Shown: in pieces, positions 7,183 through 21,043 of the stretch | Position numbering within the stretch: the first letter of the stretch is position 1 | How the letters are laid out: each line of letters starts with the position of its first letter | Source: a virus | DNA: 21,043 nt | IMG/VR virus record: IMGVR_UViG_3300021961_000761 | Span: 1-21,043 of that record | Reading direction: 5' to 3' (one strand) | Position numbers and translations under genes: made by a program | Notes under the pieces: model-generated | The model's database searches: none | Told to the model about the DNA's origin: nothing | Seen by the model: only the letters and a program-made list of their open reading frames with translations

Positions 7183-10100
7183 ATGGCCTTAGAACAAAGA
7201 GAATACACTCCTGAAGAATTAGGATTAGTACCTTCTTCTCAACCTGCTCCTTTAGAACAAAGAGAATACACTCCTGAAGAATTAGGATTATCCCCATCTA
7301 CTTCAACCGCAACCGCACCAACAGCTCCTTTAAAACAAAGAGAATATACACCTGAAGAACTTGGAATATCTCCAGACGTGTCTAAAAAAGCAGAAGACGT
7401 TGGTTTCTTTGACCGTTTAGCTCAATCTTTTAAAGAAGGTATCTCATCGTTTGAAGATATTAAAGCAGGTTATGATTTAGCCCTAACAGAAGATAATAAA
7501 GATGCCGCTCAACAAATGGCTAATATTAAAGCTCAATCTGCAGCAGATGAATTAAGTCGGATTCCAACGTTAACAGCAAGAGATATTCAACGTATCGCAG
7601 AAGAAAAAGGTTTAATTTCTGCAGGTACTCAAATACCTTCATATCTACTAGAACAAATTGCTAAGTCCGGTCCTCAAATGGCAGTGCCTATTTTAGTATC
7701 TCTAGGAGTAGGAGCTATATCAGGGCCTCTTGCGCCTTTCACTGCTCCTATTGCAGGTATCATTACTTATGGTGCTCAGCAGTTTGGTAACTTTATGAAC
7801 ACTCAAGGGCTAGTAAAATCTGCTCCTGAAGAACTTGATGCAGGTCAAGCTTTGAAATGGGCCACTATTACAGCTCCTATTGGTTTTGCAATGGATAGAT
7901 TTACTTTAGGAATTACATCTGCCCCTAAAAAAGAAATAGCTCAAGAAGTTGCAGAAGAATTAGCTAAACGTGGTGTCATTAAAACTGTAGGAGGACAAGC
8001 TACTAAAGGAGCTACCAAAGGTTTTATTGCAGAAGCACCTACCGAAGTATTAGAAACATGGGCAGAACTACATCAAGCAGGTGCTGATACCAGTAGTGAT
8101 GATGCATACGAAGCTTATTTTGAAGCATTCTGGTCTGCAGGTGCAGTAGGTGGTGGTCTTGGTGGTGCGGCAGGCGCGTACCGAGGATATAAAGACTTCA
8201 AAGAAGCTCAACTTGTATCAACACAACCTGTAGATAGCGATGAAGTGGATACTAATGAAAAAGTTACAGAAACTAGAAATCAAAAAATTAATGAAATATT
8301 AGGCGAACAAAAAGCAGAAGTTAGATTACAAGAAGCAAAAGAAATATCTAAAGCTGACATTAAGGTCATTGATAATAATGTGCTTAAAAAATTAGGTATT
8401 AATCCGCGAAGTACTCCAGCAAAAACTTTACTTGATTTAGACCTAACAAACCCCGATAATATAGAAATAGCAAAAAATGTTTTAGATAAAGAAAATCTAA
8501 AAATTAAAACCAATGAAAAAGCGGTTGATAATTTTAGAAGAAAACTAAATAAACTTGAAAAGAAATTAGCACAGGAGAAAGTTGATGCAGATGAGCCCCC
8601 TAAGCGACCAAGACCTGGAGCTCGCGCTAAAGTATCTGAGCAACCCGACACCGACATTACCACCACAACTCAAGAAACTAACAGAGACACAATGGACGTT
8701 TCTCGCACAGGTCTTGGAGGACTTGATGATACAAAGAGAAGAGGCAGTGCTCCATTAACATTCCAAGGTAAAACTGTACCTAAACCACTTATTACTTTAT
8801 ATAACAACTTTAAACAAGCCTACGCTACTGCTGATACGCCAGCTAAAAAAACAGCTGCTGATAATCAACAGAAAAAACTTCTTACTTCAGTTAATACTTT
8901 TTTAGGTAAAAATAATACTCCAGAAAATCAAGCAGAACTAGTAAGAACATTAGAAAATGTAGGAGTCCAAGAAGCCACGCAACCTCAAACTGCAAAACAA
9001 AGAGCTTTAAATAAAAAAGCAAAAAAAGAATCTACTGCTCAAACAATATTAGATGAACAAATTGATAAAGAAGTTAATGATATTGAGACAGAATTAGACC
9101 CTATCAAAAAAGCAGAAAAAGAGGCAAAATTAGCAGGTGAATTTGATGCAGATACTATTTATGATGAGGTGCTAGACCAAGAAATAGATTTAGGTGGTAA
9201 GCTCCCAGCTACACGAGCAGGTAAAAGAAGCCAACGACCTATTATTCAAGATTTACAAAAAGATAAAACATTAGGTCAAGTACTTACAAAACTTAAAGGT
9301 AAATTTAGAGATTCATTAAATGATGCTCAAAGTATATTACTAGATAAATTATCTATTCTTCCTAATATAAATAAAACAAAGTTCCAAGTTCAAGCTAATA
9401 TGGAACAAACAAGAGATGATAGAAGACCCTCAGGTCAAACAGACCAATATGGTTTATATACTACTACCATGGATACAGTTCAAGTATCTGATAAAGCCGA
9501 TGTAGAAACTATACTACATGAGACAACACACGCAGCTACAGCAAATGAACTTAGAAAACACGTACGCAACGGTAAAGGAGTAACCACTTTAGGAAGGCGT
9601 ATTGTTCAATTATTTGATACTGCAAAAGCTGCAGATACTGATGGTAGATTTGAAACAGAACTTAGTAATGTAGATGAGTTTGTATCAGAAGCATTCAACA
9701 ATGATAATTTCCAAAGATTTTTAGCTAGTGTTCCAAGCCCAGAGGCGACTCCTCAGCGACCTACAACTATATGGTCAGACTTTGTTGAAGCAGTAAAAAC
9801 TATGCTAGGTCTAGGAGATATAAGTGGTACAGTTTTAAATGATGTTATTGCTATTGCTCCTGATTTATTCAAAGGTCCTAACTTAGAAGAACAACAATCA
9901 GCTCCTCCAAAACTTTTACCAAGACGTATAAATAGACAAAGAGAACAAGAACTAGATGATAAACTAGAGCGAACTAAAACAGCTAGAGAAATAGAAAAAG
10001 AAGAAGAGGCTAAAAGAGAACCTATTGAGCCTAATAAATCTCAAGTTTCTATATCAGACAAAATTGCAACTACTGTATTTTCTTTCGATGCTGCCTTAGA

Positions 10101-12714
10101 TAATAAAATAAGAGCTGAACTTAAAAAAGTAATGAAAGAAGGCAATATAACATGGGATGATGTAGCAAAAATTCTTAATGATATTTCGGCTTCTCAAGCA
10201 TTACATGCAGAGGAAGTATCTCAACAGTTTTTACAGTTTGGTGAGATTGTTTATAACGAAGATTTAGGCAAATTTGAAGTAGTAGCATCTAGAGAAGCGC
10301 CCAGCTTCAAAAAGATTATGACTAGCTTAAAATCTATTGCCGACAATAATGGCATATCACTAGACAAAATGCGTAAGATTGCAACTAAAGCATTTGTAGC
10401 ATTACGAGCTAAAAATCTACAACAAAAAAATACACAATTAGAACTACAGGCAAGACAATTAGTTCAGCAAGGTAAAACAGCAGAAGCTAGAAAATTATTA
10501 CAAGAAAATTATGTGCTTGTAGACATGACTGAAGACCAAATTAATGAAGCATTAGAATTTTTTGAAGAATTTCCAGAGCTCAATGATATTCATGACATGT
10601 GGATTGAAACTAAAAATAATGCAATAAACTTCTTAGTATTTAATGAAGTAATGTCTCAAGAACAAGCAGATGAATTTATGAATGTTGTAGATACAGAAGG
10701 TGAACCTGATGATACTTATGTTCCTTTCTATCGGGAAGAAGGCCCTGAACCTGTACAGTATCAGCGTGGTTTAGGAGACCGAGGCAAATTTTATAAGATT
10801 AAAGGGTCTTATGAGCCTGTAGCTGATGTATTTGAAAACATGGATAAGTGGATACGTAAGAGTATCAAACAAGGTATTTTAAATAGAGCTGCAATTAATA
10901 AGATTGATGCAACCATAGCACTGCCTAACTCTGAATCCATGATTAAAGAAGTTGCTACAAGAGGCCCTAATACAGTTGCTATAAGCAGAGTTAATCCTGA
11001 AACAGGAAAACAAAAACTTACTTACTATGAATTTTCAGACCCTTATTATGCAGCAGCTATCGGTGGTATTGAAACTATTACTATAGATGGTATTAAATGG
11101 TTAGCTAGTGCATCGAACTTATTACGTCAGAATATTGTGTTATATCCATTATTCTCATTGGCTCAATTACCTCAAGATTCAGTATCAGCTATGTTTTCTT
11201 CTGGAGTTAAATACCCCTTCATGATTCCTTTAAGAGTTATGGCTCAGTTCCCGCTTACCTTACTTGGACTAAGTAGAACCCATAATAGACTGAAAAAAGT
11301 AGGTGCTGTAGGAGGCTTTGGTTCTTATCTTCAAGGCGAATCTCAAGCAGAAAGAGATATTCAAAAACCAGGTTGGTTTAATAAAATGAGAAGAAGTGTT
11401 GCAAAAATTCCGGGTTTAAGTATGACTAACCCAATTAAAGCAGGGGATTTAAACTTATCTGTATCTGGTCTTTTAAATAGAATAGCAATGGCATCAGACA
11501 ATGCTGTGCGCCAAGCAGTTTATGACCAGACTATGATGGAAACTGGTGATGCTCGTTTAGCTATTGAAAGAGCTTTTGAAATTATTAACTTTAAACGAGC
11601 AGGGTCTAATAAATATGTAACGGCGGCTAGACAATATATCCCATTTTTTGGCGCGGCATTACAAGCTTTATCTGTACAAGGTAGAGTTCTCACTGCAAAA
11701 GGAATTGCTCCTCAAACTAGAGCACAAGGGATTGCTAATTTTTTAAGAGCTTGGGCATCATTAGCAGGACTAACCTTACTATATAATGCATTAATGAGCG
11801 ATGATGAAGAGTTTAAAAAACTAGACCCATCAGTTAGAGATAGAAGACTTTTATTTGGTAATGGTTATCACATCACATTACGACCTGATATATTTACCTA
11901 CTTAGGTAAAATAATGCCTGAACATGTAATTCAAAATATGGTATATGAATCTGAAGATAATCAAAAATTCTGGGATGCCTTAAAACGTAATGCAGCAGAT
12001 ATAATTAGTATGAATGTTCTTCCTCAACTATTAAGACCTGGAGCAGAACTATTTTATAATTATAGCCCTGTTACAGGTAGACCTATTGTACCGCAGTCTT
12101 TACAAGATGAACCTATATCTCAACAATATACAGCTTCTACAACAGAATTTGGAAAGTTAATTGGCCAACTAACAAACATACCTCCTCCAGCAGTCGATTA
12201 TTTTTTCAGACAATATTTTGGTTACACAGGCGGTTTAGTTATGATGTTTGCAAGCTCTATGATAGAAGATGCAGATATTTTTAAATATGATATGCCTACT
12301 AAATCCGAAAGAGATTTATTAGCTAGTATTCCAGGGATGAGTGCATTTATTTCTAAAGAATATGGTAATAGATATACATCTGATTATTACGAATTAAAAG
12401 CTGAAGTTGATAAAGCCTATAAACAATTTCAAAGTTTAGATAAATATGGATTTGATATTAAGAAAGCCAAAGAATATTACCAAGAGAATAAAAAATTAAT
12501 TGATACTAAAGACGATATATCTACTTTACAAAAAGATTTAACAGCAATACGACAACGAAGAAAAGAAATTCTTCAAACGCCTAGAACTAAAATGTCTGCC
12601 GATGAAAAAAAGGCTGAATTAGATAGCTTAAAAAATATAGAAAACACAACTTTAGGTCGAATCTTAGAAATAAGAAAACGAGTATACGGTACAAGAGCTT
12701 TTGCTGAAGACTAA
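7183..12714 (+). CDS. Giant polyvalent internal virion / DNA-ejection protein with HExxH metallopeptidase-like site and LPD38-like region (1843 aa)
   Basis: Domains in order: three copies of an (L)EQREYTPEELG(L) peptide (residues 3-15, 24-36, 50-62); a hydrophobic segment (166-202) and a Gly-rich one (317-340) that could form membrane channels; a long charged helical linker (about 350-740); an HETTH site (779-783) followed by NVDEFVSEAF (829-838), the layout of a zinc metallopeptidase with E832 as likely third ligand; another charged linker; an LPD38-like region with hydrophobic helices (about 1310-1570, including FKRAGSNKY and ARQYIPFFGAALQAL); and a C-terminal coiled coil (about 1750-1840). 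Size and position match the last, largest internal virion protein of podoviruses (T7 gp16-like), which is ejected into the host to form a channel. I see no transglycosylase motif; the metallopeptidase site may replace it. It converges with the - strand genes, its stop overlapping the opposing stop. Confidence 0.75.
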   Translation: MALEQREYTPEELGLVPSSQPAPLEQREYTPEELGLSPSTSTATAPTAPLKQREYTPEELGISPDVSKKAEDVGFFDRLAQSFKEGISSFEDIKAGYDLALTEDNKDAAQQMANIKAQSAADELSRIPTLTARDIQRIAEEKGLISAGTQIPSYLLEQIAKSGPQMAVPILVSLGVGAISGPLAPFTAPIAGIITYGAQQFGNFMNTQGLVKSAPEELDAGQALKWATITAPIGFAMDRFTLGITSAPKKEIAQEVAEELAKRGVIKTVGGQATKGATKGFIAEAPTEVLETWAELHQAGADTSSDDAYEAYFEAFWSAGAVGGGLGGAAGAYRGYKDFKEAQLVSTQPVDSDEVDTNEKVTETRNQKINEILGEQKAEVRLQEAKEISKADIKVIDNNVLKKLGINPRSTPAKTLLDLDLTNPDNIEIAKNVLDKENLKIKTNEKAVDNFRRKLNKLEKKLAQEKVDADEPPKRPRPGARAKVSEQPDTDITTTTQETNRDTMDVSRTGLGGLDDTKRRGSAPLTFQGKTVPKPLITLYNNFKQAYATADTPAKKTAADNQQKKLLTSVNTFLGKNNTPENQAELVRTLENVGVQEATQPQTAKQRALNKKAKKESTAQTILDEQIDKEVNDIETELDPIKKAEKEAKLAGEFDADTIYDEVLDQEIDLGGKLPATRAGKRSQRPIIQDLQKDKTLGQVLTKLKGKFRDSLNDAQSILLDKLSILPNINKTKFQVQANMEQTRDDRRPSGQTDQYGLYTTTMDTVQVSDKADVETILHETTHAATANELRKHVRNGKGVTTLGRRIVQLFDTAKAADTDGRFETELSNVDEFVSEAFNNDNFQRFLASVPSPEATPQRPTTIWSDFVEAVKTMLGLGDISGTVLNDVIAIAPDLFKGPNLEEQQSAPPKLLPRRINRQREQELDDKLERTKTAREIEKEEEAKREPIEPNKSQVSISDKIATTVFSFDAALDNKIRAELKKVMKEGNITWDDVAKILNDISASQALHAEEVSQQFLQFGEIVYNEDLGKFEVVASREAPSFKKIMTSLKSIADNNGISLDKMRKIATKAFVALRAKNLQQKNTQLELQARQLVQQGKTAEARKLLQENYVLVDMTEDQINEALEFFEEFPELNDIHDMWIETKNNAINFLVFNEVMSQEQADEFMNVVDTEGEPDDTYVPFYREEGPEPVQYQRGLGDRGKFYKIKGSYEPVADVFENMDKWIRKSIKQGILNRAAINKIDATIALPNSESMIKEVATRGPNTVAISRVNPETGKQKLTYYEFSDPYYAAAIGGIETITIDGIKWLASASNLLRQNIVLYPLFSLAQLPQDSVSAMFSSGVKYPFMIPLRVMAQFPLTLLGLSRTHNRLKKVGAVGGFGSYLQGESQAERDIQKPGWFNKMRRSVAKIPGLSMTNPIKAGDLNLSVSGLLNRIAMASDNAVRQAVYDQTMMETGDARLAIERAFEIINFKRAGSNKYVTAARQYIPFFGAALQALSVQGRVLTAKGIAPQTRAQGIANFLRAWASLAGLTLLYNALMSDDEEFKKLDPSVRDRRLLFGNGYHITLRPDIFTYLGKIMPEHVIQNMVYESEDNQKFWDALKRNAADIISMNVLPQLLRPGAELFYNYSPVTGRPIVPQSLQDEPISQQYTASTTEFGKLIGQLTNIPPPAVDYFFRQYFGYTGGLVMMFASSMIEDADIFKYDMPTKSERDLLASIPGMSAFISKEYGNRYTSDYYELKAEVDKAYKQFQSLDKYGFDIKKAKEYYQENKKLIDTKDDISTLQKDLTAIRQRRKEILQTPRTKMSADEKKAELDSLKNIENTTLGRILEIRKRVYGTRAFAED
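7189..7368 (+). repeat. Three in-frame copies of a 39-bp / 13-residue repeat
   Basis: Copies lie at 7189-7227, 7252-7290 and 7330-7368, all in frame at the start of the giant virion protein. The first two are identical over all 39 bases; the third has diverged at several mostly synonymous positions and changes L-E to L-K and the last residue to I. Linkers are Ser/Pro/Thr/Ala-rich. Identical DNA in two copies points to recent duplication; the protein-level conservation of the older copy suggests the peptide is under selection. Confidence 0.9.
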
Positions 12715-12917
12715 GCAATCCTCCAAACCCTAACGCCTAGATAGTCTTCTTTAGTTGTAACAAAAGTCTTAACTCGAATACCTGCACGTTTCGCGCCTGA
12801 CTCTGCAGCATAAATCATTTGAGCTGTTTTAAGGGTAGGAATAAAGAAACTATCCCCTATTGCCATACCCTGAAACGGAAACAACCACTCTACTTCCTCA
12901 TATAGACTCAGTCTCAA
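12711..12917 (-). CDS. Small conserved phage protein, function unknown (up to 68 aa)
   Basis: A compact protein with the pattern MxIGDSFFIPTL...A.MIYAAESGAKRAGIRVKTFVTTKEDYLGVRVWRI, which I recognise as a recurrent small-protein family near phage replication genes; its function is not known to me. The start is uncertain: the longest frame begins with TTG at 12917, but AAGGAG (12919-12924) lies only one base away from it and seven bases from an in-frame CTG at 12911. A TTG at 12884 and an ATG at about 12866 are also in frame, and the conserved part begins near the latter two. Its 5' end overlaps the end of the primase-helicase gene, so translational coupling is likely. Its stop overlaps that of the convergent giant gene. 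Confidence 0.65.
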   Translation of the reverse strand: MRLSLYEEVEWLFPFQGMAIGDSFFIPTLKTAQMIYAAESGAKRAGIRVKTFVTTKEDYLGVRVWRIA

Positions 12918-15756
12918 TCTCCTTAGAAATAATATTATCTACTACGTCTGGAGGTAAAGTATTCATATCTATAATGTAAGATTGAACATTAAATTCATCT
13001 AGACCCGGCTTCCAACCCGCGGCTAACTTCTTACGTTTCTCAATAACACCAATGTTTTCCTCTTGTAATTGGAACACAAACTGCTTAGGGGACACGCCTT
13101 TATCTTCCACTAAGAATTTTCTAAATGCAGGCTTACTTAAACAAAGCTCTCTAGCATCGTTATCTACTCTAATTAGTAATGCATTGTGAGGAGTTAGTGG
13201 GTGTTTTTCTTCATGCACTAAAAGCACTGACCCTAGATTTTGTTGTACAAATTCATTAATGGTAGATACATAATTAATCTGCTCTGTTTTATGTACATTG
13301 TCGCGTATATCTATTAATTCAGCTACAACATTTCTATAGATTCTATCTAAATCATAGTGAAGAATATCATATTTGTCTGCTACTTCTCCTGCAACCATAG
13401 TAGTAGCAACTAAACTTTCATAGAAGCGGTATGCAGTATCATCACCAAAATCTTTCTTAAACTTGTTTGCCCAATAATCTAAACGTTTATCAATAGCTTC
13501 TTTACCTTCTATATATAGCCCTTTAACAAATTCAGGGCCTGCCCAACCATGATTACTAAGTAGCGGGTGAAACATTACTCTGCCTTGAGATGGGTCATCT
13601 TTTAATAGCTTAGGTTTTTTCATAAAGAACTCAATGAGTCTAGCCATCTCCCCTACAGCGTTTTGTTTAGATGAATATATCTTATCTACAATAGAATGGT
13701 TAGTTGTAAAAATGCCTATCAAAGATGCAGAGTTTTCATGTGTTCTTTCAGCATTGGTTGATGCTTGCATACGGAGTTTAGCTTTACCTTGTGAAATCCA
13801 GTGAATGATGCGTCCAAGGTCTTGCCCTTTGACAGCCCCAACCTCATCTAGTCCATACGGTAAATTATGCAAAGATAAGAACCGCCCCATAACAGCTAGT
13901 GGTGTTGTCTCTAACACTGACATATCTTTAGGCATACCCCACATACTGAGGGCGGCGTATAGTGAACCTGTTTTACCTACACCTGAATCACCTACTAAAG
14001 ATAAAGTCACTCCTGATGTTGGCGTATAGTTCATAAGTACAGAACTTAATCCTGTTAAAGCTACAAAAGCATGAAGTTCAAACCCTTCAATGTTTAGTTT
14101 ACCCACTAACTCTTTCCATGTATCGTATGAACCTGCTCGATAAACATGCCTTGATGTCTCTTTTATAGTATCTATTAACGCACTAGGGACTTCACTGCCG
14201 TCAGACTTAATTTCTACATTACCTGCAACAAACGCATCATGAGTATATGTCCAACCCATCTGAGTATGTAGTTGTTGAGCGGTCTCAGCAGCTTGAGCAA
14301 TGCCCCCTGCAAAGATTAAATAGTCCATAATTTCCTTCCATTGATTAGTTTTAGCATCAAATAATACTCCGTGTTTAGCAATTAACTTTCTTAGTTCAGT
14401 ACCATCATATAAAGTACTAAATGGTACATAAAATTCAGCGGGTGTATCGTGGGGCGTATCATATTTCATTAGTAAGCAATAACCGTCTTTGCTACTATAT
14501 ACCCGTTTAAGAGGGTAAAAATCATACGCACAGATAGCCCTTTCTTTTTGTTCTACCAACTGTCCACTCTCGTCATACACAGGTTTAGGTTTACGATAGA
14601 TACCCCCGTTCTGACCTCTGTAATAGCCTTCTATAGCATATTCTGGAGGTAGCCCTACAAGACTGGTAGTTACCGTCGGCATGCCGTTTAATGCTGTTGA
14701 GACTTCTGAACGAATAAAATTTTTGGTAGGAATAGAAGGTACAAACACTTTGCCTAAACTTAGTGGGTTTGTTATTTTATTATAGTGTGTACAACCTTCA
14801 CAAATACCAGGGTTAAGATTATCAAAAACTTTACATGATTGGGGCATACCTTGAGTTTGATTTGCTTTTCTCTCTGTAGCTTCTTTGTTATAACCTTTGT
14901 AATCTTGCGATAGAGCATGAATGTATTTGTCCCTATCTTCACAATGTTGAGCGATAGATAACGCAGCATACCATAAAGGCTCAGGTAGATTCGCTCGGTT
15001 ACGAATACAATAACGTATCTGTAGACATCCTTCGTTTGATGATTCGTCTAAGCTTTTGTTAGCAATCGTTTCAAACTTTGATTTATAGTTATTTAACCCA
15101 CTTGCTACCATAGATGTTTCAGTAAGCTTAGTGTCCTTAAGTATCTCTTCAAACGATTTCTCTACTTGCCCCAACATATTTTGAAACATACGATACTGAT
15201 ATTTCATAGGAGCAACTTCAATAACTTTAGTAGGAGTAGGAGGATTAGACTTAAGGTTAAAAGTGTTAGGGCATCTAAGTATTCTAGCTTTATCTGCACT
15301 AACGGCAGGGTCAATCTTAAGCCCGTTACTTAAACACATTTGCTTGAACTTCTCCGCATATAGTTTCCATTCATTGGCATCAACATCCTTATCTAAAGGC
15401 CAATATGCATGAATACCATTACCGCTATCTGTAATTGTAGGGGGAGGCAAATCCTGTGATTGTATAAATTCTTTTAAGGCATCAAAAGCTTGTGATTTAG
15501 TACCGTAGTCCTTAGTGTCACCAACATCTAAGTCTACAAAGAAAGACTTTAATGCTAAGGCATTCTTTCTACTATGACCATCAAACCCAGCTAATCCAAA
15601 AAATACATTATTATCTTGTTTTTTCTCTTCGACAACTTGCACTAAGTCATCAATAGAATCTACAAAGTGATGTCTGATGTTCCCGTTAGGTGGTAATACT
15701 GCTACACAATAAGAGCCCTCTGCAGGTAATATAGATGAATAAAACTCTTTACTCAT
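12898..15756 (-). CDS. Primase-helicase fusion: AEP-type primase plus DUF927-like SF3/AAA+ helicase (952 aa)
   Basis: The N-terminal third carries archaeo-eukaryotic primase motifs: FFVDLD (metal-binding DxD, residues 75-77), SGNGIH (111-116, the sxH nucleotide-binding motif) and DPAVSADKARILRCP..FNLK (149-168). A small cysteine cluster (C308, C319, C322) follows. The C-terminal half is an ATPase of the DUF927 type: Walker A GDSGVGKT (589-596), Walker B-like LDEVG (D637, E638), and TTNHS as sensor-1-like Asn. It would lay primers and unwind the fork in one polypeptide. I chose the ATG at 15756 over a TTG two codons earlier because it forms a standard short overlap with the end of the HTH gene. 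It sits in the middle of the replication operon, after the SSB genes. Family assignment is strong; primer synthesis versus a replication-initiator role is not settled by sequence. Confidence 0.85.
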   Translation of the reverse strand: MSKEFYSSILPAEGSYCVAVLPPNGNIRHHFVDSIDDLVQVVEEKKQDNNVFFGLAGFDGHSRKNALALKSFFVDLDVGDTKDYGTKSQAFDALKEFIQSQDLPPPTITDSGNGIHAYWPLDKDVDANEWKLYAEKFKQMCLSNGLKIDPAVSADKARILRCPNTFNLKSNPPTPTKVIEVAPMKYQYRMFQNMLGQVEKSFEEILKDTKLTETSMVASGLNNYKSKFETIANKSLDESSNEGCLQIRYCIRNRANLPEPLWYAALSIAQHCEDRDKYIHALSQDYKGYNKEATERKANQTQGMPQSCKVFDNLNPGICEGCTHYNKITNPLSLGKVFVPSIPTKNFIRSEVSTALNGMPTVTTSLVGLPPEYAIEGYYRGQNGGIYRKPKPVYDESGQLVEQKERAICAYDFYPLKRVYSSKDGYCLLMKYDTPHDTPAEFYVPFSTLYDGTELRKLIAKHGVLFDAKTNQWKEIMDYLIFAGGIAQAAETAQQLHTQMGWTYTHDAFVAGNVEIKSDGSEVPSALIDTIKETSRHVYRAGSYDTWKELVGKLNIEGFELHAFVALTGLSSVLMNYTPTSGVTLSLVGDSGVGKTGSLYAALSMWGMPKDMSVLETTPLAVMGRFLSLHNLPYGLDEVGAVKGQDLGRIIHWISQGKAKLRMQASTNAERTHENSASLIGIFTTNHSIVDKIYSSKQNAVGEMARLIEFFMKKPKLLKDDPSQGRVMFHPLLSNHGWAGPEFVKGLYIEGKEAIDKRLDYWANKFKKDFGDDTAYRFYESLVATTMVAGEVADKYDILHYDLDRIYRNVVAELIDIRDNVHKTEQINYVSTINEFVQQNLGSVLLVHEEKHPLTPHNALLIRVDNDARELCLSKPAFRKFLVEDKGVSPKQFVFQLQEENIGVIEKRKKLAAGWKPGLDEFNVQSYIIDMNTLPPDVVDNIISKEIETESI
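12919..12924 (-). promoter_or_regulatory. Ribosome binding site (AAGGAG) inside the primase-helicase 3' end
   Basis: AAGGAG on the - strand lies seven bases before an in-frame CTG at 12909-12911 and only one base before the TTG at 12915-12917. Spacing favours the CTG, a rare start codon, or coupling to a later start; this site decides where the 68-aa protein begins. Confidence 0.4.
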
Positions 15757-16078
15757 GAGCAACTACCAACATAGGTTTTACTTCGGACTCCATAAAAACT
15801 TTAGTGGCAGTATAGTTAGGCGTGGGTAGCTTACCATCAGCTAATCCTTGCTCTATCAATTTATATAACCTCTCAAGTTTAGGCTTTGTTTTCTGCCTTA
15901 TTTTTCCTCCACGAAACCAATCGTGTACTGTCTTCCTTGTTATTCCTAAAACATTTGCCACATGTGCATTAGGTACTTTAGCCTTAATACATAATTGTGC
16001 TAACTGTATTCCTGTGTGTTCTAAGTCTGCGTGTTGAAGACCTAATAAAAATCTATCACTATAGGGTCTAACCATCAT
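15749..16078 (-). CDS. Helix-turn-helix DNA-binding protein (about 109 aa)
   Basis: With the start at the ATG at 16078, residues 35-57 form a clear helix-turn-helix (VPNAHVANVLGITRKTVHDWFRG), followed by a basic segment (KIRQKTKPKLERLYKLIEQGL) and a LADGKLP turn. The fold is of the Cro/CI-XRE or homeodomain-like type and suggests sequence-specific DNA binding. The start at 16078 gives an ATGA overlap with the upstream stop; GGAG lies three bases from it and six from the ATG at 16075, so either may be used, while the ATG at 16087 has no visible ribosome site. Being inside the replication operon between SSB-type and primase genes, it may regulate this operon or bind the origin rather than control lysogeny; no integrase or repressor partner is seen here. 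Confidence 0.72.
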   Translation of the reverse strand: MMVRPYSDRFLLGLQHADLEHTGIQLAQLCIKAKVPNAHVANVLGITRKTVHDWFRGGKIRQKTKPKLERLYKLIEQGLADGKLPTPNYTATKVFMESEVKPMLVVAHE

Positions 16079-16893
16079 TCTCTCCATTTATCTACTATAT
16101 TATTAACATTGACTGATTCAAGTTTTGTCTCTTCTCTTGTTGCGTCATAAGCTTCAAATTTAACTGGCTCTTTCTCAGTAGAATCTTCACCTTGATAAAC
16201 ACTTAGTGTGACCGCATTAACAGCACTAGGTGATTCTGCTTGTGTTTTGACTGTTTCAAGTACATCTTTAGGCACAATTTCTACTGGAGAAAATAAAACC
16301 CTTGGCTTATTAGAGTTAGGGTCAAATTCCATTTTAGTAATAATTATTCCTGCACTTACATTATTATCTGCAAGCATTTTGATGTAAGCTTTAAATGGCC
16401 ACTTACCTTGTTCCTCAGTACCAAAACAAGAATTAGCTGGAAGAACTAATTGTAAAACATCACCTGCCGCATCATTAGCTAAAACAACAGCCATGCGCCA
16501 TGACATTCTACAAGAAGTGCTAACCCCTCCTGAACCTGAGCCTCGCACACTATTGGGACAAGTATGACAAGACTCAGACTGAGGACGGTTTACTTCCTTA
16601 TCAGGATTTACAGAATCATTAGACCAACAAACAGGACTCACTTTTTTGCCTTCTTCGTATGAACTTTCATAATACACCCTTGATGGCGTATGCGCCATCT
16701 TGACAATTATTATATTCATGGTAGAAGCTTCAGCCGTACTGACTTCTTTGCCCCCAACTATTTTTCTAAATACGCCTCCTCTTAAAGAAATGCGTTTGTT
16801 TTGATTAGAAAAGTTACCACTAGCAACAGCTATAGTATCTTCATCTAAACCTAAGTTAGGGTTATTTTTAAGTATGGCTTTAAGTTTATCCAT
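16075..16893 (-). CDS. Four-cysteine, zinc-binding-like protein, probable ssDNA-binding or replication accessory factor (272 aa)
   Basis: Cysteines 89, 109, 112 and 128 (PVCWSND...SCHTCPNS...TSCRMSW) form a CX19CX2CX15C cluster that probably binds zinc. Around it are beta-rich stretches (MNIIIVKMAHTPSRVYYE; DVLQLVLPANSCFG). The pattern PxCxSxD....P...C..CP.N is one I associate with a phage protein family near replication genes, with no settled function known to me. The last residues, NNIVDKWRE, resemble the end of the adjacent SSB (ADIVSKWGAKD). The ATG directly follows the SSB stop with no gap, and AAAGGA lies upstream, so the two are probably co-translated. A second ssDNA-binding protein, or a partner that binds the same polymerase or helicase as the SSB, fits best; this is inference. 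Confidence 0.55.
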   Translation of the reverse strand: MDKLKAILKNNPNLGLDEDTIAVASGNFSNQNKRISLRGGVFRKIVGGKEVSTAEASTMNIIIVKMAHTPSRVYYESSYEEGKKVSPVCWSNDSVNPDKEVNRPQSESCHTCPNSVRGSGSGGVSTSCRMSWRMAVVLANDAAGDVLQLVLPANSCFGTEEQGKWPFKAYIKMLADNNVSAGIIITKMEFDPNSNKPRVLFSPVEIVPKDVLETVKTQAESPSAVNAVTLSVYQGEDSTEKEPVKFEAYDATREETKLESVNVNNIVDKWRE

Positions 16894-17562
16894 TTAGTCC
16901 TTTGCCCCCCACTTACTTACGATGTCAGCAATATCTTTACTTCCATCATTGGTGGGAGCACTTTTGATAACTTCTGGTTCAACTACTTCAGGAATTGGAG
17001 CTGTGCTTTCTTCTGCAAAGACTTCCGCTCCTTCGTTATGAACATAGCCTGTAGTTTCTTCAAAACCAAAACGGTCTGCACTGCTAGAACCTTCAACAAG
17101 AGTAATAATTTGTACAGCTCGTAGACGTAGAGCGACACCTGCCCCGACCATACTTGTATAGTATGGAGCAATAGAACCATTCACTCTAATCTCAGAGCCT
17201 GCCCATATATTACTATCTACTACCACGTTACCTTTAGCATCAAAGATAGCTGGTTTGTAGGCAGCTTTAGATTTAAAACGAAGAATAACATTCCCTGTAG
17301 GTTGACCTGCATCATCTAATTGGTCAGTGTATGGAGGGTTGGCAGTTTTTAACTCCTTACCCTTTTGTTTCTTCATTTCTTCTTTTAGATTTTCTGCAAA
17401 AATTGCATTAATCTGGTCAATCAAAGGTTGGGCGTCAGCCTTAGATAATACAAGACTAACTTTATACTCACCTTCCTCATTAAATTTAGTATCAGGGGTT
17501 GATAGCCACGGATACAATGCTACACCTTTAGGTGTTGTAAATACATTTGGTTGTTGCGCCAT
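16894..17562 (-). CDS. ssb: Single-stranded DNA-binding protein, Enc34 / DUF2815-like (222 aa)
   Basis: The N-terminus (GVALYPWLSTPDTKFNEEGEYKV, about residues 13-35) and following pattern (SLVLSKADAQPLIDQI..IF, then KP.IFDAKGN, then G..IRVNGSIAPY.......V.LRLRAVQI) match the Enc34-type OB-fold ssDNA-binding proteins of phages. Length is usual for the family. The C-terminal 45 residues are acidic and low-complexity (EVFAEESTAPIPEVVEPEV) and end in DIADIVSKWGAKD, as expected of a flexible tail that recruits replication partners. It coats unwound DNA for replication and recombination. AAGGAGA eight bases upstream of the ATG is a strong ribosome site, matching the high expression such proteins need. 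It lies with the helicase, primase and nuclease genes, supporting the call. Confidence 0.82.
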   Translation of the reverse strand: MAQQPNVFTTPKGVALYPWLSTPDTKFNEEGEYKVSLVLSKADAQPLIDQINAIFAENLKEEMKKQKGKELKTANPPYTDQLDDAGQPTGNVILRFKSKAAYKPAIFDAKGNVVVDSNIWAGSEIRVNGSIAPYYTSMVGAGVALRLRAVQIITLVEGSSSADRFGFEETTGYVHNEGAEVFAEESTAPIPEVVEPEVIKSAPTNDGSKDIADIVSKWGAKD

Positions 17563-17575
17563 AGTTTTTTTCTCC

Positions 17576-18022
17576 TTATTTACTTGACGGTTTACGTACT
17601 ACGATATTGAACTCCCTCATAGAACTAATGCCTGGAGGTAGTCCTGCTTCTTCACGACCATTTAAAAACTCTTTAAAGTTTGCTTGATGAATGCGTTGTT
17701 GTAATAACTCTACGGCATCATTCTCACGAATAAAGTCTTTAAAGTTACCCCAATCAGAACATACATAATTTTCTTTTAAAGATTTTATAATAGTCCCTTT
17801 TGAAGTCTTAATGCTATCTGCATTTACTTCATTACAAGAGCTAAGCATTACTTGTTCTAACTGAGCAAGGTCATTTTTTAACTCTTGGTCTTTCATTTGA
17901 AACTCTCTAGTTAATTCGTCCCGTTTGTTTCGGATTCTAAGATAAGTTTCAACTAACTCATCTAACTGAATCTTTTGTTCGGGGGTAGAATGTTCTAGAA
18001 CTTCTTCTACTAAATCACTCAT
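17576..18022 (-). CDS. Conserved phage protein with N-terminal coiled coil, replication-module associated (148 aa)
   Basis: Residues about 15-62 form a charged coiled coil (LRIRNKRDELTREFQMKDQE and onward). The second half has a recurrent phage pattern: S.KTSKGTI.....Y.CSDW..FKDFIRENDAVELLQQRI, then LPPGISSMREFNIVVRK. I recognise this layout from small proteins near phage SSB and nuclease genes, but no function is established to my knowledge. A Gam-like nuclease inhibitor or recombination mediator would fit a coiled-coil protein between a helicase and an SSB; that is only a guess. Its start overlaps the helicase stop by ATGA, and GAGGAA lies eight bases upstream. No membrane segment or enzymatic motif is visible. 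Confidence 0.65.
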   Translation of the reverse strand: MSDLVEEVLEHSTPEQKIQLDELVETYLRIRNKRDELTREFQMKDQELKNDLAQLEQVMLSSCNEVNADSIKTSKGTIIKSLKENYVCSDWGNFKDFIRENDAVELLQQRIHQANFKEFLNGREEAGLPPGISSMREFNIVVRKPSSK

Positions 18023-19584
18023 GATTCTAATTCCTCACGATATAAGTCAACTAATTTTGTATGCAAGTCTACCTTACCTTGTAGCATGGCATACATCCTT
18101 TTTTCAACATCAGAACCCTGCAAATGAACGACTGTCATTTTGTTCTTTTGCCCTACCCTATCCATCCTAGCTATACACTGCAAATAAACTTCTACTGACA
18201 TAACAGGAGACCAAAATACAACAGTGTCGGCTTTGGTCAACGTTACTCCATGAGAAGCTGATTGTGGTTGAATAACTAGGACTTTAGGTTCGTCCTGAGT
18301 TTGAAACCTGTTAATGATGTGTGCTCTTTCAGTAGCAGAAACTGCCCCGTAGATAACATCATTTGTTACATTATGCTTGTTTAAATATTCCGATATAAAA
18401 TGAATAGTGTGTTTGTATGGTATAAATAAAAGAACTTTATGGTCTGTTTCTTCTAGTACTTCCATTAATGCATTAAGTCTAGGTGTTACATCAAATCTAA
18501 TAACTTCTCTATCGTCTGTATAAACTGCACCACCAGAGATTTGTAATAATTTATTAAGACCCGCAGCAGCGTTTACTGCAGTTACCGATTCATCGCCTGT
18601 AGCAATAATCATTTGTGTTTTTAATTCTTTATAGAATTTTTCTACTTGTGGAGTAAGTGGCACGATGCGAGTCTGATACATAACATCAGGTAAATCTAGA
18701 CATTGGTCTTTAGCAAACCTTATAGCAGGTTGCAGTGCTTTAAATACTAAATCTTTTGCTGTTGGTCTTGGTATCCATTTAAAACGAGATACTTGATACA
18801 TCACTTTATCTCGCCATGCAGACGATAGTTTAGGAAGTCTATCTGGACAAATAAGTTTGCCTAATCCAAAAGCATCCATAGGTGATTGAGATGCAGGGGT
18901 ACCTGTCATCATCCATAGTCTTGTATCAAAATCTAATATCTTACTAAGTGTTTTCCATCGGACTGTGGTATGAGATTTATAAGCGTTGCATTCATCGACT
19001 ATAATTAAATCAAATTTTGCTTTTTTAATTTCATCTTTAACGATGTTTACGCCATCATAATTAATAATAGTAAAGTCGTAGCCTCCCTCAATAATTCTTT
19101 TTCTTTTATTTGCATCGCCATGACATACTATTGAAGTCCTATGCATACATGTATTAAAAACATCAGCTTGCCATGCAGAATGCATGATTGATAGTGGACA
19201 TATAATGAGTACTTTTTTAATTTTGTTTTGAGTCATCAGATAATCTGCTGCCCAAAGAGCTGACGAAGTTTTCCCTGTACCTGCTTCATTAAAACAAAAA
19301 GCATGTTTGTTAATACTTAAAAATTCTGCAGTGGTAATTTGATGGTCAAAAGGTGTATATAGACCTGAGTATTTATAATCTCTCCTCATAGGAGAGGGAA
19401 GGTTGGATTTAAATCTAACGAGTGTATTGAGCTTGGTCATTTCATCAAGACCCCAATAAACTATTAAACTTGAAATATTATCTTCTGTACTTAAGACTTC
19501 ACTTTTTTCTATGTTGTCTTTGATTAATGCCCCTAATTCTTTAGGCAACGCAAGCTTTACAGCTTTGTCTTCAACTAATTCCAT
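18019..19584 (-). CDS. SNF2-type / SF2 DNA helicase-translocase (521 aa)
   Basis: Ordered SF2 motifs are visible: FDHQITTAEFL (Q-like region, about residues 79-89), Walker A EAGTGKTSSALW (100-111), motif Ia IICPLSIMHSAW (127-138), DECN (197-200, Walker B), MTGTP (226-230, motif III), LLFIPYKHTI (motif IV region), GVTLTKADTVVFWSP (motif V), and QCIARMDRVGQ (469-479, motif VI with arginine fingers). The RxDRxGQ form of motif VI is typical of SNF2-family translocases. Such proteins in phages act in replication, recombination or fork remodelling. It follows a strong promoter at 19622-19651 and is the first gene of the transcript that continues through SSB and primase. AGGAA precedes the ATG closely. 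All motifs are intact, so it is very likely active. Confidence 0.9.
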   Translation of the reverse strand: MELVEDKAVKLALPKELGALIKDNIEKSEVLSTEDNISSLIVYWGLDEMTKLNTLVRFKSNLPSPMRRDYKYSGLYTPFDHQITTAEFLSINKHAFCFNEAGTGKTSSALWAADYLMTQNKIKKVLIICPLSIMHSAWQADVFNTCMHRTSIVCHGDANKRKRIIEGGYDFTIINYDGVNIVKDEIKKAKFDLIIVDECNAYKSHTTVRWKTLSKILDFDTRLWMMTGTPASQSPMDAFGLGKLICPDRLPKLSSAWRDKVMYQVSRFKWIPRPTAKDLVFKALQPAIRFAKDQCLDLPDVMYQTRIVPLTPQVEKFYKELKTQMIIATGDESVTAVNAAAGLNKLLQISGGAVYTDDREVIRFDVTPRLNALMEVLEETDHKVLLFIPYKHTIHFISEYLNKHNVTNDVIYGAVSATERAHIINRFQTQDEPKVLVIQPQSASHGVTLTKADTVVFWSPVMSVEVYLQCIARMDRVGQKNKMTVVHLQGSDVEKRMYAMLQGKVDLHTKLVDLYREELES

Positions 19585-19651: not shown

Positions 19652-19966
19652 CTATTTTTTCTTTCTTTCTCTTGTACTTGTTTCTGATACTAATTTTCTT
19701 TGTGAATTTCTTTTAAATGAACGGTTTTTACTTTTAGATTGTACCGTTACTCCATGAGCGTTAGTACCGCCCTTAGAAATAGCTCTCTTGTGTGCTATAT
19801 CTTTTCCTTCTCTTTTATCTGCTTTACCATTACCGTTTTTATCGGGGCTTGTTGCATCCATCTTGCGACGAGCACGCGCTCTCATAGCTCTTGCAGACTT
19901 TTCATTTCGTTTCTTTTCCATTTCCCATTCATGTTTATATGGGCGTGGTCTATTTACATATGGCAT
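19652..19966 (-). CDS. Very basic HNH-like protein with an EF-hand-like loop (104 aa)
   Basis: The protein is strongly basic throughout (KHEWEMEKKRNEKSARAMRARARRK at the N-terminus, RKKK at the end), as for nucleic-acid binding. Residues 56-69 (DIAHKRAISKGGTN) with N81 resemble the DH....KGG.N...N core of HNH nucleases, but spacing and flanks are shortened, so activity is doubtful. Just before it, residues 42-53 (DKNGNGKADKRE) fit the canonical EF-hand/dockerin calcium-loop pattern with acidic or Asn residues at positions 1, 3, 5, 9 and Glu at 12. GAGGTGA about seven bases before the ATG is a good ribosome site. It overlaps the end of the larger HNH gene by 17 bases and is followed at once by a strong promoter. 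Small basic HNH-like proteins of this type recur in phages; role unknown. Confidence 0.62.
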   Translation of the reverse strand: MPYVNRPRPYKHEWEMEKKRNEKSARAMRARARRKMDATSPDKNGNGKADKREGKDIAHKRAISKGGTNAHGVTVQSKSKNRSFKRNSQRKLVSETSTRERKKK

Positions 19967-20411
19967 TTTTAGTCACCTCATTACACCAAAATAAAAATTC
20001 ATTAACAGTTAGATTGCCTCGGAACGAATTAATAGCCCTACAGACAATTTGAATGTTATTATAATTATACTCTCCTCCCGCATTAATTCTATCAATACTT
20101 GCGTTAGTTTGTATTATATTACCACGCTCACGTCTACACGTTAGTTCAACTCCACTTAGTGCGCACTTATAATTTTGCTCAGCTATTTTACCTATTAATT
20201 GTTCTGCAGTAAGGGTGGTATTTTGTTTTTTAGATAACAAATGTCGGAAATATTTATACCAATCATGGTCTTCTCTCTCATATCGTTTTTGCGTTTTAAC
20301 TTGATTTTTGCATGTATTACAACAAAACCGCCTATTGTGGGTAGTTGCTACCCCTGCTTTTTTGCATACAATACAAATGTATGGGTAAGTTTTAATTTTT
20401 ATGAAACTCAC
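19950..20411 (-). CDS. HNH endonuclease, homing-type (about 153 aa, GTG start proposed)
   Basis: An N-terminal zinc-ribbon-like set (CIVC, residues 13-16, and FCCNTC, 29-34) precedes a helical region and an HNH-type core: YKCALSGVELTC, then NASIDRI..GGEYNYNNIQIVCRAIN. This is the phage homing-endonuclease variant in which the usual Asp-His is Asp-Arg. It would nick or cut DNA at a target site, often to spread itself. The open frame extends further upstream to 20474, but that part overlaps the nuclease gene's C-terminus out of frame, so it is not real. The best start is GTG at 20411, which overlaps the nuclease gene by 20 bases; no strong ribosome site is seen, suggesting coupled, low-level translation. 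Insertion directly behind a nuclease gene is typical of free-standing homing genes. Confidence 0.75.
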   Translation of the reverse strand: MSFIKIKTYPYICIVCKKAGVATTHNRRFCCNTCKNQVKTQKRYEREDHDWYKYFRHLLSKKQNTTLTAEQLIGKIAEQNYKCALSGVELTCRRERGNIIQTNASIDRINAGGEYNYNNIQIVCRAINSFRGNLTVNEFLFWCNEVTKNAICK

Positions 20412-21043
20412 AACTTGTAACAGGACACCAACCACAAAGTGGTGTAGGATTAGGAACCCAAGTATCATAATCATAGCTTGTCTCTAATCTTTTTAATGGC
20501 ACTTCAAATGCTTTCCAAAGTTTATCCATATCACGTCTATGATATTCTTCAGTTAAAAAACTGTTTTTCATAATAAACAAAAGACCTGCTTTTATTTTTT
20601 GCACTTCTGGAAAGTACGTAAATGTCATCAAAGCCATAAGCTTTAATTGTTTAGGGTCGGGATATTTGTTACTGCCTGTTTTATAATCAATTATAAATGC
20701 ATAATCTCCATCTATAATAAGCAAATCAACAATACCTCTAACCCATCTATTCTCAGAATCAAATTCACATGGCTCTTTACCATGGGTCAAAGCCATTTCA
20801 TACTCTGGGTATTTTTCTCCAGGTATGTTAATTAATGCATCAACAGAGGATTTAAATCGCTGGTAATTTTTAGCAAGTTCTACTCCGTCTCTCACATAGT
20901 CTTCTAGGGCTTTATGAACCTCTTTACCATAAATCATAGCGTCATTTTCTTTGACTATATAATTTTTAAGAACTCTTATTTCATGGTATTGGCGAGGACA
21001 GTTTTGATATTGTTTAAGTGATGAGTAGCTCCACGTGTAATCT
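20392..21043 (-). CDS. Cas4/RecB-like PD-(D/E)XK exonuclease (5' partial, at least 216 aa)
   Basis: The frame stays open past the internal ATG at 20937 to the window edge, and the extra residues (SYSSLKQYQNCPRQYHEIRVL) are the family's N-terminal motif, so the gene starts beyond the window. Counting from that ATG, the nuclease core is visible: GKEVHKALE (2A-type His), E47, GIVDLL (D71), FIIDYKTG (D84, K86), and the QhxxY-like KQLKLMALM (Q97). Three C-terminal cysteines (CGWCPVTSC, 168, 171, 176) plus the N-terminal NC cysteine (codon 20998-21000) make the four ligands of a Cas4/AddB-type Fe-S cluster. Such phage nucleases process DNA ends for recombination or degrade host DNA. It heads the - strand gene run seen here. 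Catalytic residues are intact. Confidence 0.87.
   Translation of the reverse strand, partial: DYTWSYSSLKQYQNCPRQYHEIRVLKNYIVKENDAMIYGKEVHKALEDYVRDGVELAKNYQRFKSSVDALINIPGEKYPEYEMALTHGKEPCEFDSENRWVRGIVDLLIIDGDYAFIIDYKTGSNKYPDPKQLKLMALMTFTYFPEVQKIKAGLLFIMKNSFLTEEYHRRDMDKLWKAFEVPLKRLETSYDYDTWVPNPTPLCGWCPVTSCEFHKN

Follow-up and report, generated by a model that had tools for sequence, protein, structure and literature searches.

The C-terminal tip of bacterial SSBs, of the DDDIPF type, is a short docking tag, and to our knowledge each known SSB docking tail belongs to its own SSB fold. Among phage proteins, the C-terminal tail of T7 gp2.5-type SSBs has been implicated in partner binding, and passages of the Enc34 paper describe an acidic tail as characteristic (PMC5686142). 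In phage T4, according to passages of PMC11551737, the OB-fold SSB gp32 has a flexible end with a V-x3-L-x2-F helix that recruits the helicase Dda and lodges in a cavity of its RecA-2A domain; V258, L262 and F265 contribute to the contact. After the gp32 helix (residues 248-270) comes a long acidic C-terminus (273-301).

The window analyzed here is the whole 21,043-nucleotide stretch of viral DNA (positions 1 to 21,043 of IMG/VR record IMGVR_UViG_3300021961_000761), and its minus strand carries a replication module made up of a nuclease, an SNF2-family helicase, P4, an SSB, P2, a small HTH protein and a primase-helicase (Table 1). Some neighboring features are recorded here as well. The phrog_13900 family of P4 bears the label "minor head protein", as does its Xp15 record; this label is probably wrong, because the place of P4 in related contigs is between the SNF2 helicase and the SSB slot. 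P4 also gave a weak Mu Gam/Gp157-like match under the Pfam cut-off. An Endonuclease VII/HNH-like ORF (19950-20474, minus strand; phrog_1035, E 3e-14) lies between the nuclease and SNF2 and is perhaps a mobile insertion, because similar ORFs seemingly come and go, being present in some relatives and missing from others. On the plus strand, positions 7183-12714 encode a protein of 1843 aa, which starts with three near repeats of (E/K)QREYTPEELG(L/I).

Table 1. Features of the replication module in the window, with strand and supporting evidence.
Feature	Position	Strand	Evidence or remark
PD-(D/E)XK nuclease	20392-20937	-	replication module member
SNF2-family helicase, leading candidate receptor of the tail	18019..19584	-	PF00176 E 5e-21; phrog_62 E 2.5e-104
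SNF2 helicase codon for E29	19498..19500	-	charge opposite to tail position -1 across relatives
P4, candidate partner, immediately upstream of the slot	17576..18022	-	phrog_13900
gp2.5-like (T7-type) SSB, 222 aa	16894..17562	-	PF21265, PF10991, phrog_112, model
C-terminal cassette of the SSB (EPEVIK box, then a spacer and the helix DIADIVSKWGAKD)	16897..16980 (helix 16897-16935)	-	
P2, 272 aa, predicted OB-fold, probable second SSB	16075..16893	-	phrog_27714 E 4e-26 (function not annotated)
P2 residues 89-128, C89/C109/C112/C128, likely metal site	16510..16629	-	Cys invariance
P2 EPVK box of the cassette	16159..16170	-	
P2 C-terminal helix NVNNIVDKWRE (W270)	16078..16110	-	
Small HTH protein, far boundary of the slot	15749..16087	-	weak HTH matches below cut-off; synteny
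Primase-helicase (DUF927)	12898..15762	-	C-terminus outside the shared tail

The SSB ends in DIADIVSKWGAKD and P2 in NVNNIVDKWRE, and the piece common to both comprises about 30 residues, namely an EPx(V/L)(R/K) box followed by an amphipathic helix that closes in W, with hydrophobic residues at -7, -4 and -3 and the aromatic residue at 0. The original prediction of a common C-terminal tail on two adjacent proteins was upheld, with a shared piece larger than claimed, and positions 16078-16935 span both tails exactly. Its remark that the two proteins are otherwise not visibly similar also stands, since hhalign of the P2 profile with the SSB profile aligned the last 29 columns only (E 7.6e-5); judged by their sequences, the two cores are unrelated.

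The likeness of the tails is real and not due to chance. Homologues were fetched with P2, with the SSB and with alignments of each (at most the 80 best loci per search), the counts cover proteins other than those of the window itself and identical-protein duplicates, and the tail pattern was set as [ILVMA][ILVMA]x[KR]W, followed by no more than 8 residues. Among the matches listed, this pattern was found at the end of 95 of 126 unique P2s, 26 of 69 unique gp2.5-like SSBs and none of 2509 other unique ORFs of the same loci; the P2s and SSBs outside the pattern were mostly Q, E, A or S variants, or else ended in acidic residues or in a helix of the Leu type. Again among the matches listed, a profile of 75 P2 tails from genomes without an SSB found 45 of the 69 SSBs (best E 8e-11), and a profile of 14 SSB tails from genomes without P2 found 47 of the 126 P2s, while neither matched other ORFs (0/2509 at E <0.01 for the P2-tail profile; none for the SSB-tail profile). 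In addition, an EP box is present within the last 60 aa of 63/108 tailed P2s and 30/47 tailed SSBs, compared with 40/2509 other ORFs among the matches listed, usually at a distance of 23-25 residues from W.

Conservation of the tail among homologues was confirmed overall. P2s with about 47-56% identity to that of the window retain the tail after a variable linker, and W270 is found in 56 of the 57 rows with a residue at that position in a 60-row P2 alignment; the P2 tail is, however, missing in the L168-L185 group and in seven slots that hold both P2 and an SSB. The expectation that the two tails co-vary was borne out only in part. Both tails are altered together in the L160/L164 clade, where P2 ends in ..LE(T/E)LLSAW and the SSB in ..LDDLVS(D/E)W, but across 25 same-genome P2/SSB pairs the likeness, at 4.56 of 10 positions, barely exceeds the 4.23 between genomes (p 0.037 by permutation, an effect driven by clade). 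The primase-helicase, which had been put forward as a looser relative, does not belong here: its true end, DNIISKEIETESI, is not conserved, and among 190 unique homologues of more than 850 aa W was present in the last 9 residues in 4 and a loose tail match in 2, the latter ruling it out as a third tail bearer. A tail-like end, VKQGID(E/D)ILSKF(N/S), was also observed in a protein of about 360 aa (L126:252-1340, with copies in L036, L039, L118, L120, L124 and L138), which was seen in close relatives only and has no convincing family match.

The window SSB was assigned by PF21265 (E 6e-14; 52.4 bits against a cut-off of 27), PF10991 (E 1e-7) and phrog_112 (E 1.2e-36). Its model (pLDDT 82) has T7 gp2.5 (1je5) as top PDB match, with a Foldseek E of 6e-13, and shows a long helix (41-65) after a strand (32-40), as in the gp2.5 fold, and a C-terminal helix (211-218) after a low-pLDDT stretch. 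Given how it ends, the protein combines a gp2.5-like core with a tail of another kind: whereas the T7 gp2.5-type tail is acidic with a terminal F, the module SSB carries the EP-box and W-helix cassette instead. The cassette is likewise a short C-terminal tag in the manner of the bacterial SSB tip, but differs from it in lacking both an acidic run and a PF terminus, in forming a helix that ends in W and in a charge that varies by clade; an acidic tip with a hydrophobic PF end was absent from the module tails compared. Thus, an SSB-type tag unlike DDDIPF, as the original prediction proposed, was indeed found, conserved, non-acidic and on two unrelated proteins.

P2 is probably a second SSB, perhaps of a gp32-like kind, as judged from its model and its position. 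The model (pLDDT 85.7) has a beta-rich core, a stretch with pLDDT <50 at residues 247-256 and a helix at 263-271, and its nearest folds by VIA Z are the phiC31 RDF (8.7), BRCA2 OB folds (6.8), the RB69 gp32 core (6.2, with 152 residues aligned at rmsd 4.8, other OB folds scoring alike) and T4 gp32 (4.9). Binding of ssDNA by P2 is suggested by this fold and by the slot, because P2 and gp2.5-like SSBs are exchangeable there. A counterpoint is that the best structural match is no SSB: the phiC31 RDF, gp3, is the nearest solved fold (Foldseek prob 0.95, E 2.3e-3; Z over 148 residues), with no sequence relation detectable by hhalign (probability 0.1%) and no W tail in gp3. As a separate observation, RDFs of the phiC31 type may have their origin in SSB-like proteins of phages. 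No Pfam family, the gp32 families included, matched P2 above cut-off, and the P2 profile found no relative among PDB sequences (best E 0.15). The residues C89, C109, C112 and C128 are each invariant in 60/60 alignment rows, a pattern unlike the gp32 zinc-site ligands, which we take to be one His and three Cys. Predicted P2-like proteins are widespread in phages, mostly without a name.

In related contigs the order of genes is SNF2, P4, slot, HTH and primase, and the slot is occupied by P2 alone, by the SSB alone, or by both in either order. The survey of this slot included, among the matches listed, loci from SNF2-anchored scans that were chosen independently of the tail; it was limited to loci with P4 and primase and excluded L189-L199, and a scan of genome contigs yielded 3 loci only. 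A W/F-helix protein was present in 211 of 242 unique P4-primase slots among the matches listed. In 151 of these it was P2 alone and in 18 the SSB alone, while both were tailed in 26 (22 SSB-P2 and 4 P2-SSB); a tail-less P2 was followed by a tailed SSB in 7 and by another tailed protein in 3, and the rest were minor patterns. No W/F helix was found in 31 of the 242 slots listed, including 16 of L168-L185 and 9 with P2 alone. The SSB of the L168-L185 group has an end like ..DDLAAEIAQLVGD beside a P2 without a tail, and Leu-type helices replace the W/F helix in these slots, in the Rhizobium-phage-like clade and in several of the 9 P2-alone slots. Several P2s of the Rhizobium-phage-like clade (L278-L289 and L034) end, for instance, in FDAMLDSILS or DFDSILKGLLG, which may be one and the same tag anchored by a residue other than W. 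Among P2s missed by the pattern beside tailed SSBs, that of L018 has an extended end and that of L119 ends in IIIKKYKK, with a W-to-Y change. The P2-like protein of KPP25 has no tail.

Other slot proteins also carry the tail, namely a distant gp2.5-like SSB (L347; phrog_112, E 1.5e-16) and members of a family designated X3 (L217 and L253), a third member of which (L237) falls just outside the tail pattern. The X3 proteins (L217:6718-7674, L237:3999-5030 and in the L253 slot) have 318-343 aa and a mutual identity of 36-42%, and follow a tail-less P2; those of L217 and L237 had no convincing Pfam or PHROG match, and X3 is a candidate new phage ssDNA-binding family. A 220-aa protein without a Pfam or PHROG match was further observed at L316:5336-5998, where no P2 or SSB was recognized; its end is EPVKVAKK..NDLSAIVDDWDD. 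Where the module was not seen, all 14 unique gp2.5-like SSBs have an acidic-F/W end, eight of them being judged on only 600 bases of flank. Five of these 14 acidic-ended SSBs fall inside the module clade of the SSB tree (support 96/88), and the tail therefore follows the module; on this tree, the SSB tail seems to have switched with its genomic setting, and to have done so either way. The cassette would thus belong to one module slot and not to one protein fold.

As the likely explanation of the whole, the cassette of about 30 residues, with its EPx(V/L)(R/K) box, flexible spacer and amphipathic helix, would be an inherited docking tag bound to the slot of a PolA/PD-(D/E)XK/SNF2/P4/primase module. 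Whichever SSB-like protein fills the slot, be it the Cys4 OB-fold P2, an SSB of the gp2.5-like kind or a member of another family, would carry the cassette, and the tail would tether this protein, when bound to ssDNA, to a single partner within the module, like the T4 gp32 helix on Dda. We are rather confident, from the sequence comparisons, that the tail binds a partner, with a common docking site as the likeliest function. The spacing i, i+4, i+7 of gp32 V258, L262 and F265 (PMC11551737) is that of V(-7), V(-3) and W(0) in the window tail, and both window proteins are modeled with a terminal amphipathic helix after a low-pLDDT linker; the modeled core of P2 resembles that of gp32, as it does other OB folds. 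The module tail differs from that of T4 gp32 in that its helix is terminal and bears W, in the EP box before the helix and in its occurrence on unrelated folds.

The neighboring SNF2 helicase, at a site near residue 29, is the partner most directly suggested by covariation, although the odds of this being the true partner seem a little short of even. The charge at tail position -1 switches between clades, and of 2685 columns SNF2 column 29 gave the strongest association of an acidic residue with K/R at -1 (50/59 vs 1/18). In 63 further representatives, acidic -1 was accompanied by K/R at SNF2 29 in 40/43 and basic -1 by E in 3/4, and the overall correlation was r -0.81 (138 representatives). 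Among near-relative matched pairs, column 29 ranked first of about 2517 columns at three identity cut-offs, with opposite and same charges in 48:4 of 70, 28:4 of 47 and 25:3 of 41 pairs (sign-flip p(max) 0.0005; p 0.33-0.99 for tail offsets -5, -8, -12 and -15), in a test that is inflated, probably due to shared ancestry, since its wrong-sign maximum of 16 exceeds the 95% null of 14 and tail offsets -2, +1 and +2 give p 0.003-0.03. Columns of P4, PRIM and PolA were high in this test as well. Consequently, the pairing of SNF2 29 with tail -1 is to be taken as a lead and not as proof. Two further outcomes were set aside: PRIM column 817 ranked above SNF2 29 in a charge-swap scan of few sequences and failed in the Q-tail class, and a mutual-information ranking, in which PRIM made up 43 of the top 50, was interpreted as reflecting divergence and was not used.

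Docking on another partner of the module, such as the always adjacent P4, PolA or the PD-(D/E)XK nuclease, is a serious, if not the favored, possibility. P4 and the nuclease were detected in 5/5 distant named phage loci (L031-L035), the matched pairs place P4 columns 30 and 34 high in the ranking, and P2 of the Acinetobacter phages HHU4 and Effie retains a KW tail (FDDIANKW) even though the alignment of their SNF2 does not cover the region of residue 29; SNF2 column 29, on the other hand, tops the matched pairs at every cut-off. Among the distant named phages, SNF2, P4 and the nuclease are retained in HHU4, Effie and Xp15, and together with the tail kept in HHU4 and Effie this narrows the choice of partner. 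Primase, HTH and this PolA subfamily were not detected in the three phages at the thresholds used; the polymerases of HHU4 and Xp15 are of family A.

It is unlikely that the tail, rather than serving a partner, turns back onto the protein that bears it and either competes with ssDNA or promotes self-assembly, a role proposed for T7 gp2.5 tails. Passages of PMC5686142 and PMC11551737 do report gp2.5- and gp32-type tails in the ssDNA site or on a neighboring subunit, but here one tail sequence is found on at least three unrelated cores, and related gp2.5-like cores have an acidic ..DF tail outside the module and the W tail inside it.

For the docking tag, the history of the DNA itself is informative. 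L212 and L217 share about 80% identical DNA across the module, the one interruption lying between the end of P4 and a point about 36 codons upstream of the stop of the tailed protein, and the tail DNA of P2 in L212 and of the unrelated X3 in L217 is identical at 74/87 nt. Similarly, L302 (P2 alone) and L318 (tail-less P2 and tailed SSB) have about 70-82% identical DNA, with homology restarting 96 nt ahead of the stop codon in either contig, that of P2 in L302 and that of the SSB in L318, and L331 is consistent with this. Homology restarts 120 and 93 nt before the stop when L166 and L173 are compared with L256, and about 31-91 nt before it in pairs of P2-only and SSB-only contigs. Regarding the window, the SSB tail matches the P2 tail DNA of the P2-only relatives L046 (67.5% of 117 columns, E 2.6e-6) and L049 (61% of 170 columns, E 7e-5), and such a match was not seen with L073, the third P2-only relative compared; from the former two matches, the two tails of the window look like an ancient copy. 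Codon identity at identical tail residues is 48% of 89 in 25 unique same-genome pairs against 45% of 1928 across genomes, which leaves recent gene conversion between neighboring SSB and P2 unsupported.

Since the tail-coding 3' end is retained while the core is replaced, the likeness of the tails is mostly inherited and not convergent. The tails were originally described as "converging"; the comparisons favor tail DNA that was inherited, kept or copied while cores changed. Independent convergence on one receptor without common ancestry is very improbable and largely refuted, as homologous DNA extends into the tails of unrelated proteins (L212/L217, L302/L318, L166/L256 and L049/L046-window) and the EP box and its spacing are common to both families, although same-genome codons are hardly more alike than cross-genome ones and convergence could still apply to single lineages, for example the second tail of the L166 P2. 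For the inherited docking tag, a more specific and still tentative version is that the tail is a fold-independent adaptor inherited alone, SSB cores (T7-type, gp32-like and others) being swapped before a fixed 3' segment and all plugged into an SNF2 helicase whose N-terminal region would coevolve with the tail.

C-terminal docking tails of SSBs are a known kind, while this tail sequence appears to be new, as do the EP box, the occurrence on unrelated cores and the persistence of the tag when cores are exchanged. A literature search, with subscription journals mostly outside it, found no description of the W tail, the EP box, such a tag on unrelated cores or a tag kept through core exchange; SNF2 helicases have been reported to adjoin PolA in virioplankton, in passages that do not feature the W tail (PMC6302109). 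What sets this module apart is that the same tag is found on unrelated cores and that natural core-for-core exchange leaves it in place, which provides a genetic argument for the tag as a functional interface. Moreover, the tail offers a sequence handle for spotting SSB-like proteins, such as P2 and the X3 family, in unannotated phage modules, and a concrete candidate contact, that of tail position -1 with SNF2 residue 29, can be named.
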